Below, in pieces: positions 41,301 to 63,704 of a DNA stretch of 64,000 nt. A program made the position numbers and the translations under genes. A model generated the notes under the pieces. The model worked only from the letters and a program-made list of their open reading frames with translations, made no database searches and was not told the origin of the DNA. Each line of letters starts with the position of its first letter. The stretch's first letter is position 1. Origin of the DNA: Sycon ciliatum (Eukaryota > Porifera > Calcarea > Leucosolenida > Sycettidae); contig NC_088646.1 in NCBI RefSeq assembly GCF_964019385.1, positions 19,094,407 to 19,158,406 of the forward strand, written 5' to 3'.

Positions 41301-44300
41301 TATTTTCTACTTGATGGATGCATATTTCAATTTTGCGGTTAAGAGGTGCGGGTGCGGCCAATTATCGCGATTCGGCGATAACAATGGACATGAGCGGAGT
41401 CTGTCCTCTATTTGTGCTGCTCCTTGTCCTTTGGTACATAATGAATGTCTCCAGAAAATTTGACCTAATTCCAAAGAGAATTGGCTGAGATGTTTGTATT
41501 TTACGGTGGACTATCCGCGAAGGTAGATCGCCACCTTAAGGACGCAGCACATTATATGTATGTATATGGCCCATACATAATAATTATTACATCACTGTAT
41601 TAGGCACAACACATAGCACAAATAATAATTATTATTAAAAATTCCAATGATTTAGACACCTGACCTCTAGAAGCTGATTGTCAAGCGCTTGCAGCTCCTC
41701 TGCTACTGGCTATCAACAACAAAGAAAAACATACAATGAACTGTACAGTTAGTAGTCCGCAGGCCAAAGCGGAAAAAAATGCTCCAAAAAAAATTTCGTT
41801 CCCGCTGATGGGGTACCAAGGTTTGTTGACTCTACGTGATAGAGTGTTCCTTTACGAGCACAATGATGTAGGTTTGGTGTCAGGGGACTTGTCCTTTCGC
41901 GTGGAATTGAGGGGGGGGTTCGACAGCTGTCAAATATGCACAGCTGTCGTGTATGGGGATTCTGAGCATGCACGGAAACTGCTCAAAACGGATCAAGTGA
42001 TGCACGCCACGCAGAATTTGGAAATTTTGAACTGAGTGATCAGGTGACGGCGAACACATTGTCAAATTTCTTATTGCACGTACAGCCATTTCCTGTTCTT
42101 CCTTTCCTTATGTCAAGCAATGATTGCGCGTTGTGTTAGGCCTTTGTCGTCCAGCTCATGGCGTCCTCGCCTGCTTCTTCAGAGTCCCTAAACAAGCGCA
42201 GTACTCGCCAGTCCGTTGAAGTTCCTCGTACCGAGCCAGGAAGGAAGAATTGCATATTTTGTGGATCCATCCAGAAAAGAATACCAGGTACCAACAAAAA
42301 GCAGAGTACTTCGCAGATTTTGACACTCGAAGCTGAGGAAAGGCTGAGAAAAGCTGCTGCCATACGGAAGGACGAGGGCATTTCGATTGCCATTTCAGCA
42401 GTCAGTAGCCTCATTGCAAGAGAGGCATACTATCACAAACAGTGTTACAACGATTTTACAAGAGAGTCATCCCTTGCACGAATCCGTGACAGCACACCAG
42501 CTACATCGACCCCAGCTACATCGACCCTAGTCACTAGCTCGTCTGCAGGTAGCGCTGAGCATGACCTGTCAACACCAAGACAAGAGGGAAACATCGAAGA
42601 CTTTTACCACCTAGTACACCAGTTGCTGTTTGTGGAACGCACTGCTGTTAGCATTTCACGTCTTACGGCAGACTACAACGCGACAGTACATGGAACTGCT
42701 AGGAATGACAGAACCAAAGCTGCTATCACAGAACGGTTTGGTGAATCTGTCACTTTTGTGCGCCGTCCGTCCCGGAACACGGCTGAGCTAGTTTTCGCTA
42801 ATGCCCATGCCAGTGAGATAATAGCCAGTTTGTATGCCGAGGTGGAAGAGGCGAGGGATTCGGATGGGGTTGATGATGATATTTGGGTGGAGGAGGACAA
42901 TGCAGCTAACACTTCAGGAGGTGAAGGTGTTGTAGCACAAGATCGCCTGCGTATTGTATATCACGCCGCACGTCTTTTACGGACTGCGTGCCAGGAGACA
43001 AAGGCCCAAGAGTCAAGCGGGGAGATCCCAACAGTTGCTGAAGCAAACGCATGCTTACCCAGCCTACTCCACAACTTTCTGGCTTGGGTAGTGACTGACC
43101 AGCATCATGATGACATCGGTCAGGACAAAGTTGATTTGGATGAGCAGCTGCAACGTCACGTCTCCTCCATTGGCCAGGATTTGCTGTATATTACATCAGG
43201 ACTGCCGTGCCCCAAACATGTTGTTCTGGGACTTACCCTACATCACCTCTACCGGAGCGAAAAGCTGCTGAAAATGCTTAACCGGTTTGGGCACACCATT
43301 GCCTACTCCCAGGTTTTGGAAAGGGAGACTGCTATGGCAGAGCGGCGAGTGCGAGACGGGCACATAGTGGATGCGTTACCGGGTGGCATTGACCCCCACC
43401 GGCCATTCTACCATGTAGCAGATAATAACGACTTAAACGAGGAGACTCTGGACGGGAAAGGGACCACACACTGCACCAACACCGTTGTTGTCCAGCCCCG
43501 TGCTTCATCTGTAAGCCGCCCTGACAGTGATGTTTCTCCTGCTGAGCCAGCACGAAAACGCAAGCGTACGCTGGCCCTCGAACCTGAGGTTCTTCCCGAA
43601 TTAGTGTGCCCGACAAAAGTCAACCCAGAGCGCCGTGAGGCAGTTGACGTGGAGACGCTGGACACCTCACTGCCTCACTGTTCTGACGCGGTGGCCATGG
43701 ATGACTTCATCTGGCAGCTTGCACGGGCTTCAAAGGACGGTGACATCGGCAACGTCATTTTGTCCCGCACTGATCAAGACCAGACAGTTCCAGCGTGGTC
43801 GGCATTTAATGCCCTGCTTCAACGCCAATGCATCCCACCACGGTCTGCCATAGGTTACTGCCCTGTGGTCAACTCGTCACCAACTGACATGTCAACAGTC
43901 TACGCCATCCTCAGAAAGTGCCTTGGTCGATGTGCCAATGCTGGCCTCCCATTTAGCATCATTGTAGTGGACCAAGCCATTTACGCAAAGGCATTGGACA
44001 TTATTAACCACCGGCCTGACGAGTTCTCACCCGTGGTGCTGAGATTGGGAGCGTTTCACGCAGCCTGCACGTTCCTCGCCATCATCGGGAAGCGTTTCCG
44101 TGATGCAGGTCTCCTTGATCTGTTCGTTGAGTCCGGGATAGCTGGACCATCTTCTGCCTCGTCTGCGTTAGACGGGACTCAATACAACCGAGCTGTGCGT
44201 TTGCACAAGGTTGTTGCAGAGGCTTTGCATCGGATGCGGTGGCAGCAGTTCGTGCAAGATGCGGATCCCACGATCATCAACCTAGCAGCCATCCGATCTT

Positions 44301-47300
44301 CACTAACGTCTTCATTCAAGGAGCTACAGTCTTGTGTCACCGATGACAACTCGGCGTGCATCACGGCATCACCGGAGGCTGTGGAGTTGCACAAGCAGTA
44401 TACGGAGTACTGCCGGAAGCGGGCCGCTTCATCAGAAATGTTCAACTTCTGGTCTTCCTACATTGCCATGGTGAGCCTTCTGCTCCGGTTCTTGCGTGCA
44501 AGTCGAATGGCAGATTGGAAGCTCCATCTGCAGTGCGTTTTGAAAATGCTCCCTTGGTGCTTTGCGTACGACAGGCAAAACTATGCCCGCTACATGTCCT
44601 ATTATTGGCTGCAAATGACCCAGTTGCCAACAACACATCCCGAAGCGGATCGGTTCCTGCAAGAAGGAGGTTTCTCCGTCCAGCGCTCCAACAACCCATT
44701 TGCTCAGGTCCCATCTGACCAGGCCATTGAACAGTCGATAAACCGGGCCACAAAGACCGTGGGAGGCATTATTGGGTTCAGCCGCCATCCAGCAACCGTG
44801 CAGAGATGGGTGTTGACTGCACATGACCGAGCCGCTGTGGCAGATGTCTGTTCGGAGCACTGTGGTATGGACAGTGGTACCGAGGAGCGAGATACCCTGC
44901 ACAAAGAGTGCCAGACGGGAAGAATGGCTCGTGATGAAAACGATGTCGTGAGTGTGGTCGAGACTGTCAGCAAGTTTCTCAACCCATTCGCATCTGACGG
45001 CGAGGAACCGCTGCCTTTGACACAGTTCGCATCTGGCATTGAGGCACCCCATGATGTAGCCCAGGATCTGCTCCATGCCGAATCTCGTGGACACAAGGCC
45101 TTCACGGCTTTTCTTAGCGAGAGACTGTTGTCTGGAGCATCCGAGAAACAATTCCACGATCCACTGAAGAAGCTGCAGCTGAAGACCTTCACTCTGAAGA
45201 AGCAGAAGAAGAAGACTCCAGGAAGTGGTCAAGCCGAAATTCTCCGGAGTGATCGGTCAACATTCTCCAGGATTGCCCTGATTGCTCAGACCAGGCAGAT
45301 GGATATGCGTCATGTCCTGTCATACCCACTTGGCCCCCTGCCCTGGGCTTTAGCAACAACGTCAGGATCTCTGGTGAAGACCAGCAAGTCTGCCCTGCTG
45401 CCGTTGCTCACGGACAAGGCGATTGTCGACGACAGTACACACCCACCTGATGGTGCACTAATAGTCGACGCCATGGCACTGTTGAGGTCAATGAAGACTT
45501 CCAGCTTGCCATCCACGTTTGCCGAATATGCTGAGTGCATCCTAGATCGCCTGTGTAAGTTCTTTGCACGGTATGCTCGAGTGGACTTTGTTGTTGATAC
45601 GTACCGGGATATGTCGATCAAGAATCTGGAACGTTCATCACGGGCCGCTAGTGGGACTCTACGGCAGCATATCACTGGCGCTGATCAACGGCTTCCCAGG
45701 CAGTTTGCCAAGTTCCTGGCAGTGGGTGACAACAAAGAGGAATTGATTGCATTCCTCGCCGTACAGTGGCAGCGTCCTGCCATGGTTGAGAAGGTGCCTG
45801 AGCAGAGGGAACTTGTCGTTACCAGTGGTAGCTCTTGTGTGATGATCAAACGTCAGGCAGGTGCTACAAGTGTCGTCCCTGTACCTGACTTGGAGTGCAG
45901 CCACGAGGAAGCGGATACCCGTCTCTTGTTGCATGCATCTCATGCTGGATCCGCAGGCTATCCCACCGTCACGGTCAAGTCCCCGGACACTGATGTAGCA
46001 GTTCTGGCTGCCTTCGCCCGCCATTGCATCTCTGGAAGATTGTACTTCCTCACTGGGACTGGGAACAAGGTTCGATGCATCGACATGGTAACTGTCAGCG
46101 ACGAGCTTGGCCCAGAACTCTGCCAAGCACTGCCAGGCTTCCACGCCTTTACTGGGTGTGATAGCACAAGTGCTTTTGCATACCGCGGGAAGAAGGCTGC
46201 ATTGAAGATTCTGCAAAGCACCGGTCCTGTTGGGTCTACATCTCGGCAAGCATTCACCTCCCTGGGGAAAGGCTTCGAACCACTGACAGCTGATGTGCTC
46301 ATCAACCTTGAGACATTTGTGTGCTCCTATTACAAAGTCTCGGGTTGTAGCAGCGTCAACGATGCAAGGTATGAGCTGTTCTGCACAAAGACCTTGCAGT
46401 CAAACCAGCTTCCACCATGCAAAGATGCCTTCCTGAAGCATGCCGCGAGAGCTAACTACCAAGCTGCCATTTGGCGCCAGTGCATTGTGGCCCAGCCTGC
46501 GATACCAGCACCACAAGATAATGGCCAAGGTGAGTGAGCTGACTGTAGCATATAATGCAGTTGTAGAGGAGGACTGCAGTATGAAAATGATGGATATTCT
46601 CTGAACAAGACATGTTCGTTGATGTTGCTACTTATACAATAGAGTGAATCAGCTGTGTTATCAACACAATCATGCATGAAGTAATTGACTGTTGTAGTGT
46701 AAGAAGCTTTTCTGATATATGGAGTAAATAATTTGCATTCCTCCATCTGTTTGTTCTCCCCATTACAGGTTGGTGTCTTGACCAGAACGGTAACGGTGAT
46801 CTAGCTGTGGACTGGCTTAGTATACCACCCGCTCCCCACTCTGTCCTCGAGTTTCTCAGCTGTGGCTGTAAGACTGGCTGTGGAGGAGGCAATTGCTCCT
46901 GCAGGCGTCACATGCTCGTGTGTACAGATGCTTGTAGCTGTCACCATCATGCTTCAGTTCCATGCAAGAACTGCCCGGTGGAATCTGCTCCTGGACATGA
47001 CGAAGTACAGGCCATCGATGAGGGAGATCTTCCGTCTGACACTGAGCAGCAGTGAGTCACCCATTTATGGACACACGGATAATGCACTTTCGTTTTATGT
47101 TACATGTAACTGTTCAACTCTAAACATTGGGTATACAGAACTGTGTTCACGTTGTGACATGCTTCCCTATTCTGATTCATGGGTGACTACAATGTAAGGT
47201 CATACTGTGAGTCAGTGAGTTCTATGATTCTATGGTCTGTCAATGCAGGTAATTGAATGAATGGCAAGTGCGGATCACGTCGGTTTACCCAGTATGTGCT

Positions 47301-50300
47301 CAAAACTAGTGGACCGATGCGGTTAAAAGTCAGGCACCTCTACTTGTTGCATACACGTGTATGTGCTGAGTGTTTTTGCTGGCTTCTGAAACAGCGTAGT
47401 GTATAGTGTATAGTGTATAACAATGTAGTATGAGTATGTGGTTGGTAATAATGCAAACCCAACATCTTTGTTACGTCAGATTTATGTGCATCTCTCGGCG
47501 TCCATATTTTGTTGGCCGCTTAGCAGCATATACTGTGCATAGCAGCATATACTGTGCATAGCAGCATATACTGTGCATGTTCAGTTCCCCGCTCAAGTCC
47601 ATTACTGAGTTGGCAGCGATTGCCGGATAGCCCTCCCACATTGTACATTGTCCAATGCCCATGTGATGGCATACTCTTCTTTTTGTCTTTTTTATATTTT
47701 CTACGCCTTCATTTTGATTTGATAACAGCCGAAGTTTGTTTCAGATGATGGCCCAGTCACATGGAGAAGCCCACCTACATGTGTATTTCATGTACATTAT
47801 AATACTTGTGATGAGTACTCTGTTCTTTGCTTCTGATGTACATCCGATCCCCAATGTGATTTGACTACAGCTCATTACGAAAGACGATCCATGTATTGGA
47901 CATAATCTTATCAGTGATTGTAATGCTATTGTATACCAAAGGGCATTCTGATTTGTATTGTGAAACAAGGCCCACCAAGTGATAAAGACTGTAAAATGTC
48001 CAGGTATATCACGAGGGGAGAGCCTCCCCTTCCACCCCATTCTGCATCCCTAATCGAGGGGCTGAGCACCCCCCTTCTACCCAACTACTGTACTTACAGT
48101 GCAATGGTATTGACCTTTTGTATGCACACAATTGTCGTACTGCGGGCGACCCGGCAGCATGGGTTCTAGTTGCACGATTATCATCAAACCTTGGATACCG
48201 GTGGTTCTTGGTCTTTCTTTGGCAATGCAAAAAACTGGAACTGCTTACAGCATAGGAAAGGTGGTAAAATTTGAATTTCGACTTCCGTTACCATGGCAAC
48301 ATCAAAATAATAGTATTCCTTTGATTTGGTCAACTTAGGACAAGAATCCCGGGACAAGAGATACATGATAAGAAAGCCCTAGCACCACTCTATCATTTCG
48401 TATAGTCAAACCTTGGTACCCTTCTGCTCGGAGCGAAAAGTACGAATTTTGCACCCTGGCCTGCGGACTATAGGAGGTGTTTTCCATTATTCACACAGAC
48501 ACACGCACGCACACGCGCGCACCCACACCCACACAGAGCACAAGAACATGGTCACCAGACACGCATGACTGCTTTGCCCTCCCGAGCCATGACTGTGAAC
48601 ACGCAAGAACACAACGACTAAACTAAAAGACCACTTCGGCACAGAGTACTGTTTCATACACATGACGATTTGACTGCTAGCCACTCGCAGCTTAGCTCCA
48701 ATGTCATACTTACTGAAGTGGGCAAGAGGTAGAGAAGGCTAAGTACTCGGCACAAGCTACGTTCATCAATGTCCTCCTCATCCGTCAACAGTTTGTTGGC
48801 CACTTTGACGGCAATGTCTTCATGAACTGTTCGTTCCTGTTGCGGCAGTAAAGAAAAAAAAGGTGTGTGCCACCATAAAACAACATGAATGCGTGCACAA
48901 GCCAACCAGTAAAAGGCTGATAAGGTAAATTGGCAAATTGCACATAGATTCACAGTTCTACAAAATTACGCTGAAAATGGCCTAAAAGAAGAAAAAAATC
49001 CTTCGAGCCGGATTCGAACCAGCGACCTAAAGATGACTGCACATCTGATCGTGTGCACACTACAGTCTTCCGCTCTACCAACTGAGCTATCGAAGGACAC
49101 ACAATAATATCCAGGAAATGACATGCAACAAATAAAACACCTGGTTGACACAATATATGTACAATGTAATGAGTTCACCATGGAGACCTTGTACAGTTGT
49201 GGCAAGTGAAATCCGTACTTGGCATAAGGGACTGCACCATGCAGTCTGCAGCCCCTGCAGCCCTGCATACGTACTGTACATGTGTTACATACAACTTTAT
49301 CTGTCTGATGACAAAACTCGTACTCATCACAGTCAAGGTTCAAAAGGTGCTGGCAAAAATGAATGGGGATTGGATACCAATACTCCTTATGTGTACCATA
49401 TTTGTGAACTGTGTGTATCTACGCTGTGACCTTTCGATCTGTTCGGCATGCATACGACTCTATAGTACAAATTAGGTGCAGTGCATTACATCATTGGTGT
49501 CCATTTGTGGCGCTGTCCCCTATGGCAAGTGTCGGATTTCACTCGCCACAACTGTACATGTACATTGTAGTCAGAAAATCGCGGTAGGAGTCTTTGTTTC
49601 TCAAGAATCAACTTATGGTCTTTCTCACCCTGCAGGGCCGGAGGCTGCTTCCGCGGAGCGGTCGAAGGGACATTTTTAAGGGGGGTCCGGGGGTCCTCCC
49701 GCAGAATTTTTTTGGAATTTAGACGGCAAATCCTGCACTCTGGGCGACTCCCTGTACAAAAATCATACATCTAAACTTTTTCTCCCCCGTTTTGGACGTT
49801 CCACGGCCACGTAGACCGACTTTTGGGGATTTTTTTGGTATGGCCATGGCCGTACCGGCCGTACCAGTGGCACCGGCCCTGCCCTGTGGGCAAGGAAGGG
49901 TATATAACCAAGAGTGTACACCTTAGTGATCCCTCGGCCCATGGCGGAATTATTTGAAAGATACGGCTGTTATTCAGTGCTTTGTGGGAAAGATGCACAC
50001 GGGAAAAGTCTCAAGAAATATCTTTAGTGGCTATTTCATTCACTGATGTCATCACATGTGGCGAGACTGTGAGCGATCAAAAGTGCAGAAAACTTGCAAA
50101 CAGCACTCACGGTGGTCTAAGCAGACCAACAGACGGTAGACCCATGCGTTCTCAACGTAATGTGGTACTGAACTGACACTGCATTTACTCAACAAGCATG
50201 CCAAGGCGCTAGGCCTATACAATTGATTATATTTCCGTCAAAAATGACGAAATAAAAATCGTGCCATGCAGGAATTCATAGCAGCACAGATCCCACCGTG

Positions 50301-59723: not shown

Positions 59724-63704
<3,981 letters not shown>

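Follow-up and report, generated by a model that had tools for sequence, protein, structure and literature searches.

A probable AcademX-type DNA transposon of Sycon ciliatum with a predicted DDE transposase core and a predicted EXO1/FEN1-type nuclease in one protein

Academ is counted among the transposon superfamilies with a DDD/E transposase in the passages cited here from PMC9587614, and AcademX is placed within Academ (Kapitonov & Jurka 2010; Kojima 2020; both as cited in the sections used of PMC4455052 and PMC10045372). The passages of PMC10045372 drawn on here give AcademX target duplications of 3 or 4 base pairs (bp) and AcademH, which has a helicase, duplications of 9 or 10 bp; on the part played by the AcademX nuclease they state only that duplication length "seems related" to it. 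Here we describe a 6,718-bp element in a 64,000-nucleotide stretch of the calcareous sponge Sycon ciliatum (contig NC_088646.1, positions 19,094,407 to 19,158,406; hereafter the window, in whose coordinates positions are given). We conclude that this element is very probably an autonomous DNA transposon of the AcademX lineage with a DDE core as its mover, a membership assigned by features, in that the element was set beside published descriptions of AcademX. A first-pass annotation of the window had raised the possibility of a new transposon class defined by a FEN-like nuclease. That proposal is not supported, because a DDE transposase, a nuclease and duplications of 3 or 4 bp together make up the published description of AcademX; the element adds a member to a known, little-studied kind. 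Its features are as follows.

41750..41752, no strand: target-site duplication, left copy, TAG, 3 bp (copy comparison)
41753..48470, plus strand: whole transposon, 6,718 bp, 5'-TAGTCCGCAGGCC ... GGCCTGCGGACTA-3' (boundaries from comparison of eight full-length copies)
41753..41851, plus strand: left terminal inverted repeat, ~99 bp, imperfect, outer 13 bp perfect (end alignment)
42158..46529, plus strand: exon 1 of the transposase-nuclease gene (sequence and homolog comparison)
42251..42445, plus strand: N-terminal putative zinc site C32-x2-C35 ... H93-x2-C96, residues 32-96 (near-invariant where homologs cover the region)
43409..44743, plus strand: predicted DDE/RNase H-like core with helical insertion, residues ~418-862; D422 or D425, D605, E858; GxxH at 631-634 (predicted structure and conservation)
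45383..46516, plus strand: predicted EXO1/FEN1/XPG-like 5'-nuclease domain, residues ~1076-1453 (predicted structure and conservation)
46530..46768, plus strand: intron, GT...AG (sequence; the predicted protein P0001 agrees across it)
46769..47055, plus strand: exon 2, stop codon included (sequence and P0001)
46861..46965, plus strand: C-terminal cysteine cluster, CXC-like (TSO1/tesmin/LIN54), residues 1489-1523 (Pfam, profile and conservation)
48381..48470, minus strand: right terminal inverted repeat, ~90 bp (end alignment)
48471..48473, no strand: target-site duplication, right copy, TAG, 3 bp (copy comparison)

The exon-1 protein was searched in six frames against the 538-Mb genome, and 32 of 673 first-look candidates were scored, which makes all counts from this search lower bounds. 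At least 41 matches were obtained. Eight of these, including the window copy, are full-length copies at 99-100% protein identity, all with a stop-free exon 1, and the remainder comprise relatives (37-63% identity) and fragments (97-99%). The left end TAGTCCGCAGGCC is present in 7/8 full copies and the right end GGCCTGCGGACTA in 8/8, and with this the copies sharing both ends and gene that the first-pass annotation suggested looking for in the same genome were found. Searched with the left end, the genome gave 13 places, and identity was ≥97% at 12 of these. Two further copies (L030 and L031) show the left end, with no right end in the stretch examined, and single ends were seen at L015 (a right end) and L032 (the left end, in a diverged relative).

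The inverted ends in the window align with a score of 75 over ~100/90 bp, compared with 33 at best when one end was shuffled 500 times, which upholds the imperfect inverted ends of about 90 bp described in the first-pass annotation. Its boundaries, 41755..48468 flanked by TA, proved to be wrong. The outermost TA opens the terminal repeat and is not flank, and the element therefore runs from 41753 to 48470. TA was rejected as the target duplication, as it is part of the ends and as it is the 3-mers just outside it that are duplicated. Three-bp duplications flank seven of the eight full copies (TAG, GCA, CTA, CAT, TAT, TAG and CAC), compared with matches in 2/56 control pairings of flanks from different copies. 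The eighth, copy 3 (L003, L022), carries the left end TAGGATTGCAGG in place of TAGTCCGCAGG and has an open exon 1 and no target duplication. Two rearranged copies also have 3-bp duplications, AGA (L028 with L018) and CTG (L029 with L038), bringing the count to 9/10 copies with both ends located. In a 46%-identical family (L016, L017) the ends are TAGACTGTGAGCC, and both members have 3-bp duplications (TCG and GCT). One copy of a 61% family, L010 (with its left end read from L035), begins TAGTCCACAAGCC, closes with GGACTA and has no duplication (0/1). Several relatives at 61-62% and one at 46% are clustered at ~14061480-14090579 of G000 C10, with L010 among them. Within the 3' part of the window element, downstream of the gene, a 19-bp unit is repeated three times in tandem (47521-47578).

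Copy 5 (L005, L024; G000 C14 near 2953164) lies within a tRNA-Ala(TGC) gene that has a tRNA-Asp gene as its neighbour, the insertion point being where the T-arm begins. When the element and one CAT are removed, a 75-base tRNA is left, whose variable loop by our count has five bases, the usual number; other assumed lengths change this, and ARAGORN accepts all five joins tried. We regard this as support for, and not proof of, the empty site. The window copy shares 98.9-99.2% DNA identity with each of the other seven full copies over about 6.3 kb. Across the 1457 codons of exon 1 in the eight copies, the variable columns hold 16 replacement and 26 silent changes (ratio per site, pN/pS, 0.195; binomial p = 2e-7 against 3319:1052 sites, at one count per column and in copies of common ancestry, which are not independent trials). 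The low pN/pS fits amplification from functional copies. The element is intact and apparently recently active in S. ciliatum.

Translation of the two exons (42158-46529 and 46769-47055) gives a stop-free protein of 1552 amino acids. This is the unbroken two-exon gene reported in the first-pass annotation, every listed residue of which is in its place, and it is matched at 99.3% across both exons by P0001, a public predicted S. ciliatum protein. In the homolog search, 7992 candidates sharing most words were scored; at least 222 homologs were obtained at E ≤ 1e-3 and 120 matches were listed. Among the matches listed, named hosts are sponge, sea cucumber, starfish, sea urchin, crinoid, acorn worm, amphioxus, hagfish, teleost, coral and sea anemone, and the named family members are annotated as uncharacterized proteins. 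P0004, a 60%-identical relative from EukProt, bears an scpid name that we take to denote a Sycon transcriptome. This broad distribution and these annotations would suit a domesticated host gene family lying between chance repeats, an explanation that we consider extremely improbable and that is refuted for the window copy by eight near-identical copies with shared ends at unrelated sites, seven of them with a duplication of their own.

The exon-1 protein matched DUF6589 alone in Pfam, weakly (E 0.00097) and below its cut-off; there was no helicase among its Pfam matches up to E 5, no XPG family match at E ≤ 5 for the window exon 1 or at E ≤ 1 for the six homologs scanned, and no match to PDB by sequence at E ≤ 5. 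The family profile matched only LIN54, through the C-terminal cysteines. The nuclease and DDE assignments are therefore structural.

Conservation was counted in a family alignment of 118 of the 120 listed homologs (>900 amino acids; two dropped), over those with a letter at each position. At the N-terminal site the counts are 62/66 for C32, 65/66 for C35, 73/74 for H93 and 71/71 for C96, and at the C-terminus eight cysteines (1489-1523) are near-invariant, in agreement with the N-terminal Cys/His motif and the C-terminal Cys cluster of the first-pass annotation. The profile match to the LIN54 CXC domain is weak (E 0.014), and among six homologs scanned with Pfam the CXC (TCR) cut-off was passed by one (P0050) and the DUF6589 cut-off by one (P0013).

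Downstream of the N-terminal zinc site and ahead of the nuclease domain, the predicted structure has strands, helices and acids in DDE order, and all of the 15 best VIA-align rows for this model (15/15) are DDE transposases. Foldseek alone weighs against this assignment, since it returned no DDE match at E ≤ 0.001 and ranked unrelated proteins at the top. D422 and D425 are each conserved in 93/93 homologs, D605 in 118/118 and E858 in 117/118. Other acids are equally conserved (e.g. E658, 117/118), and the triad was chosen from the fold because conservation alone fails to single out its members. On these models we assign a predicted DDE-type transposase core to the protein. The first-pass annotation had recognised no standard transposase catalytic core and had itself named a DDE fold elsewhere in the protein as one of the results that would speak against its proposal; structural prediction and the VIA-align matches now give such a fold.

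The predicted nuclease domain aligns with EXO1/FEN1/XPG structures at 11-18% identity in the aligned rows. Conservation is 116/117 at D1104, 117/118 at D1147, 117/117 at K1155 and R1162, 116/117 at E1250, 117/117 at E1251 and D1253, 115/117 at D1277, and 116/117 at D1279 and D1335. Seven catalytic positions and the K/R pair are thus near-invariant among the 118 aligned homologs, the acids being mapped through what we take to be the FEN1/EXO1 motif residues. The FEN-type domain of the first-pass annotation is supported by both fold and acids, and its acid positions hold, with the exception of the pair E1250/E1251, for which family conservation and the presumed FEN1/EXO1 motifs favour E1251/D1253. 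By these presumed residues the domain resembles EXO1/FEN1/XPG nucleases in fold, in the order of catalytic acids and in a K-x6-R pair after the second acid, and differs from them in being fused behind a transposase. Collectively, the models of this one protein show a DDE-type core next to a repair-type nuclease.

Would the nuclease itself, without DDE chemistry, move the element as a new transposon class? Its well-conserved fold and acids, together with the Foldseek result, speak for such a class. We consider it very unlikely and reject it on the predicted DDE-type core, with strands, helices and acids in the right order and best VIA-align matches that are all DDE transposases. FEN-type nucleases hydrolyse DNA and, to our knowledge, none is known to join ends.

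For the AcademX reading, the DDE core would most likely cut the 3' ends of the transposon and join them to target DNA 3 bp apart, and the zinc sites at the two protein ends may bind DNA or hold the complex together. The nuclease may trim or cut the 5' (non-transferred) strand or flap beside the ends. This is the role that we favour, tentatively, with an accessory repair role as its near-equal rival. The full two-nuclease reaction, in which making and joining the 3' ends fall to the DDE core and the fused EXO1/FEN1-type domain cuts the 5' strand at the structure left by the first nick, is likewise a possibility about which we retain considerable doubt. The rival differs only in what the nuclease does: it would repair or trim the flanks after integration, or bind DNA, and be dispensable for excision and joining. 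EXO1 and FEN1 are DNA repair enzymes, which suits that role, and in other elements, too, a DDE transposase is accompanied by a second nuclease (e.g. KolobokP, in the part of PMC9587614 cited here). Against it stand the near-invariant catalytic positions and K/R pair, which fit a required enzymatic step, whichever step that is. We regard the accessory role as a serious contender that still falls short of probable. With near-identical, intact and apparently recently moving copies whose ends are exact, the part played by the nuclease in this AcademX-like element is directly testable.

Elsewhere in the window, an open frame at 30039-31022 matches the C-terminal part of HSP70 (E 1.7e-110), and a 435-residue open frame on the minus strand (61366-62673) matches EAF7 above its cut-off (E 1.6e-5) and DUF6451 weakly.

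Academ elements, AcademX included, presumably also have terminal inverted repeats, a zinc site of the Cys8 kind and a nuclease labelled XPG, and the eight near-invariant, CXC-like cysteines at 1489-1523 agree with such a Cys8 site. By the passages cited, the element resembles AcademX in its 3-bp duplication (compared with 3 or 4 bp), its predicted DDD/E transposase and a predicted nuclease in the same element, and no difference appeared among the features tested. AcademH, of the same superfamily, differs in having a helicase and 9 or 10 bp (PMC10045372, as excerpted) where this element has a predicted nuclease and 3 bp, and AcademH membership was rejected on that duplication and on the helicase-free Pfam result for the exon-1 protein up to E 5. 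KolobokP, according to the sections used of PMC9587614, likewise combines a DDE transposase and an extra nuclease within one transposon, in its case a homing endonuclease of the His-Me finger type. The P element, hAT (Hermes) and RAG1-Transib share with this protein an RNase H-like DDE core interrupted by a helical insertion after the second catalytic residue and before the third, and are not known to carry a FEN/EXO1 domain. Residues 631-634 (GxxH) are similar to the C/DxxH motif in the cited part of PMC10045372. P and hAT elements make duplications of 8 bp and Transib makes duplications of 5 bp, and the 3 bp found here led us to reject P element or hAT membership. In Tn7, TnsA processes the 5' strand beside TnsB, which the division of labour proposed here resembles. 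If the proposal is true, loss of the nuclease would convert cut-and-paste into copying, and a two-nuclease AcademX would be a eukaryotic single-chain counterpart of TnsA plus TnsB.
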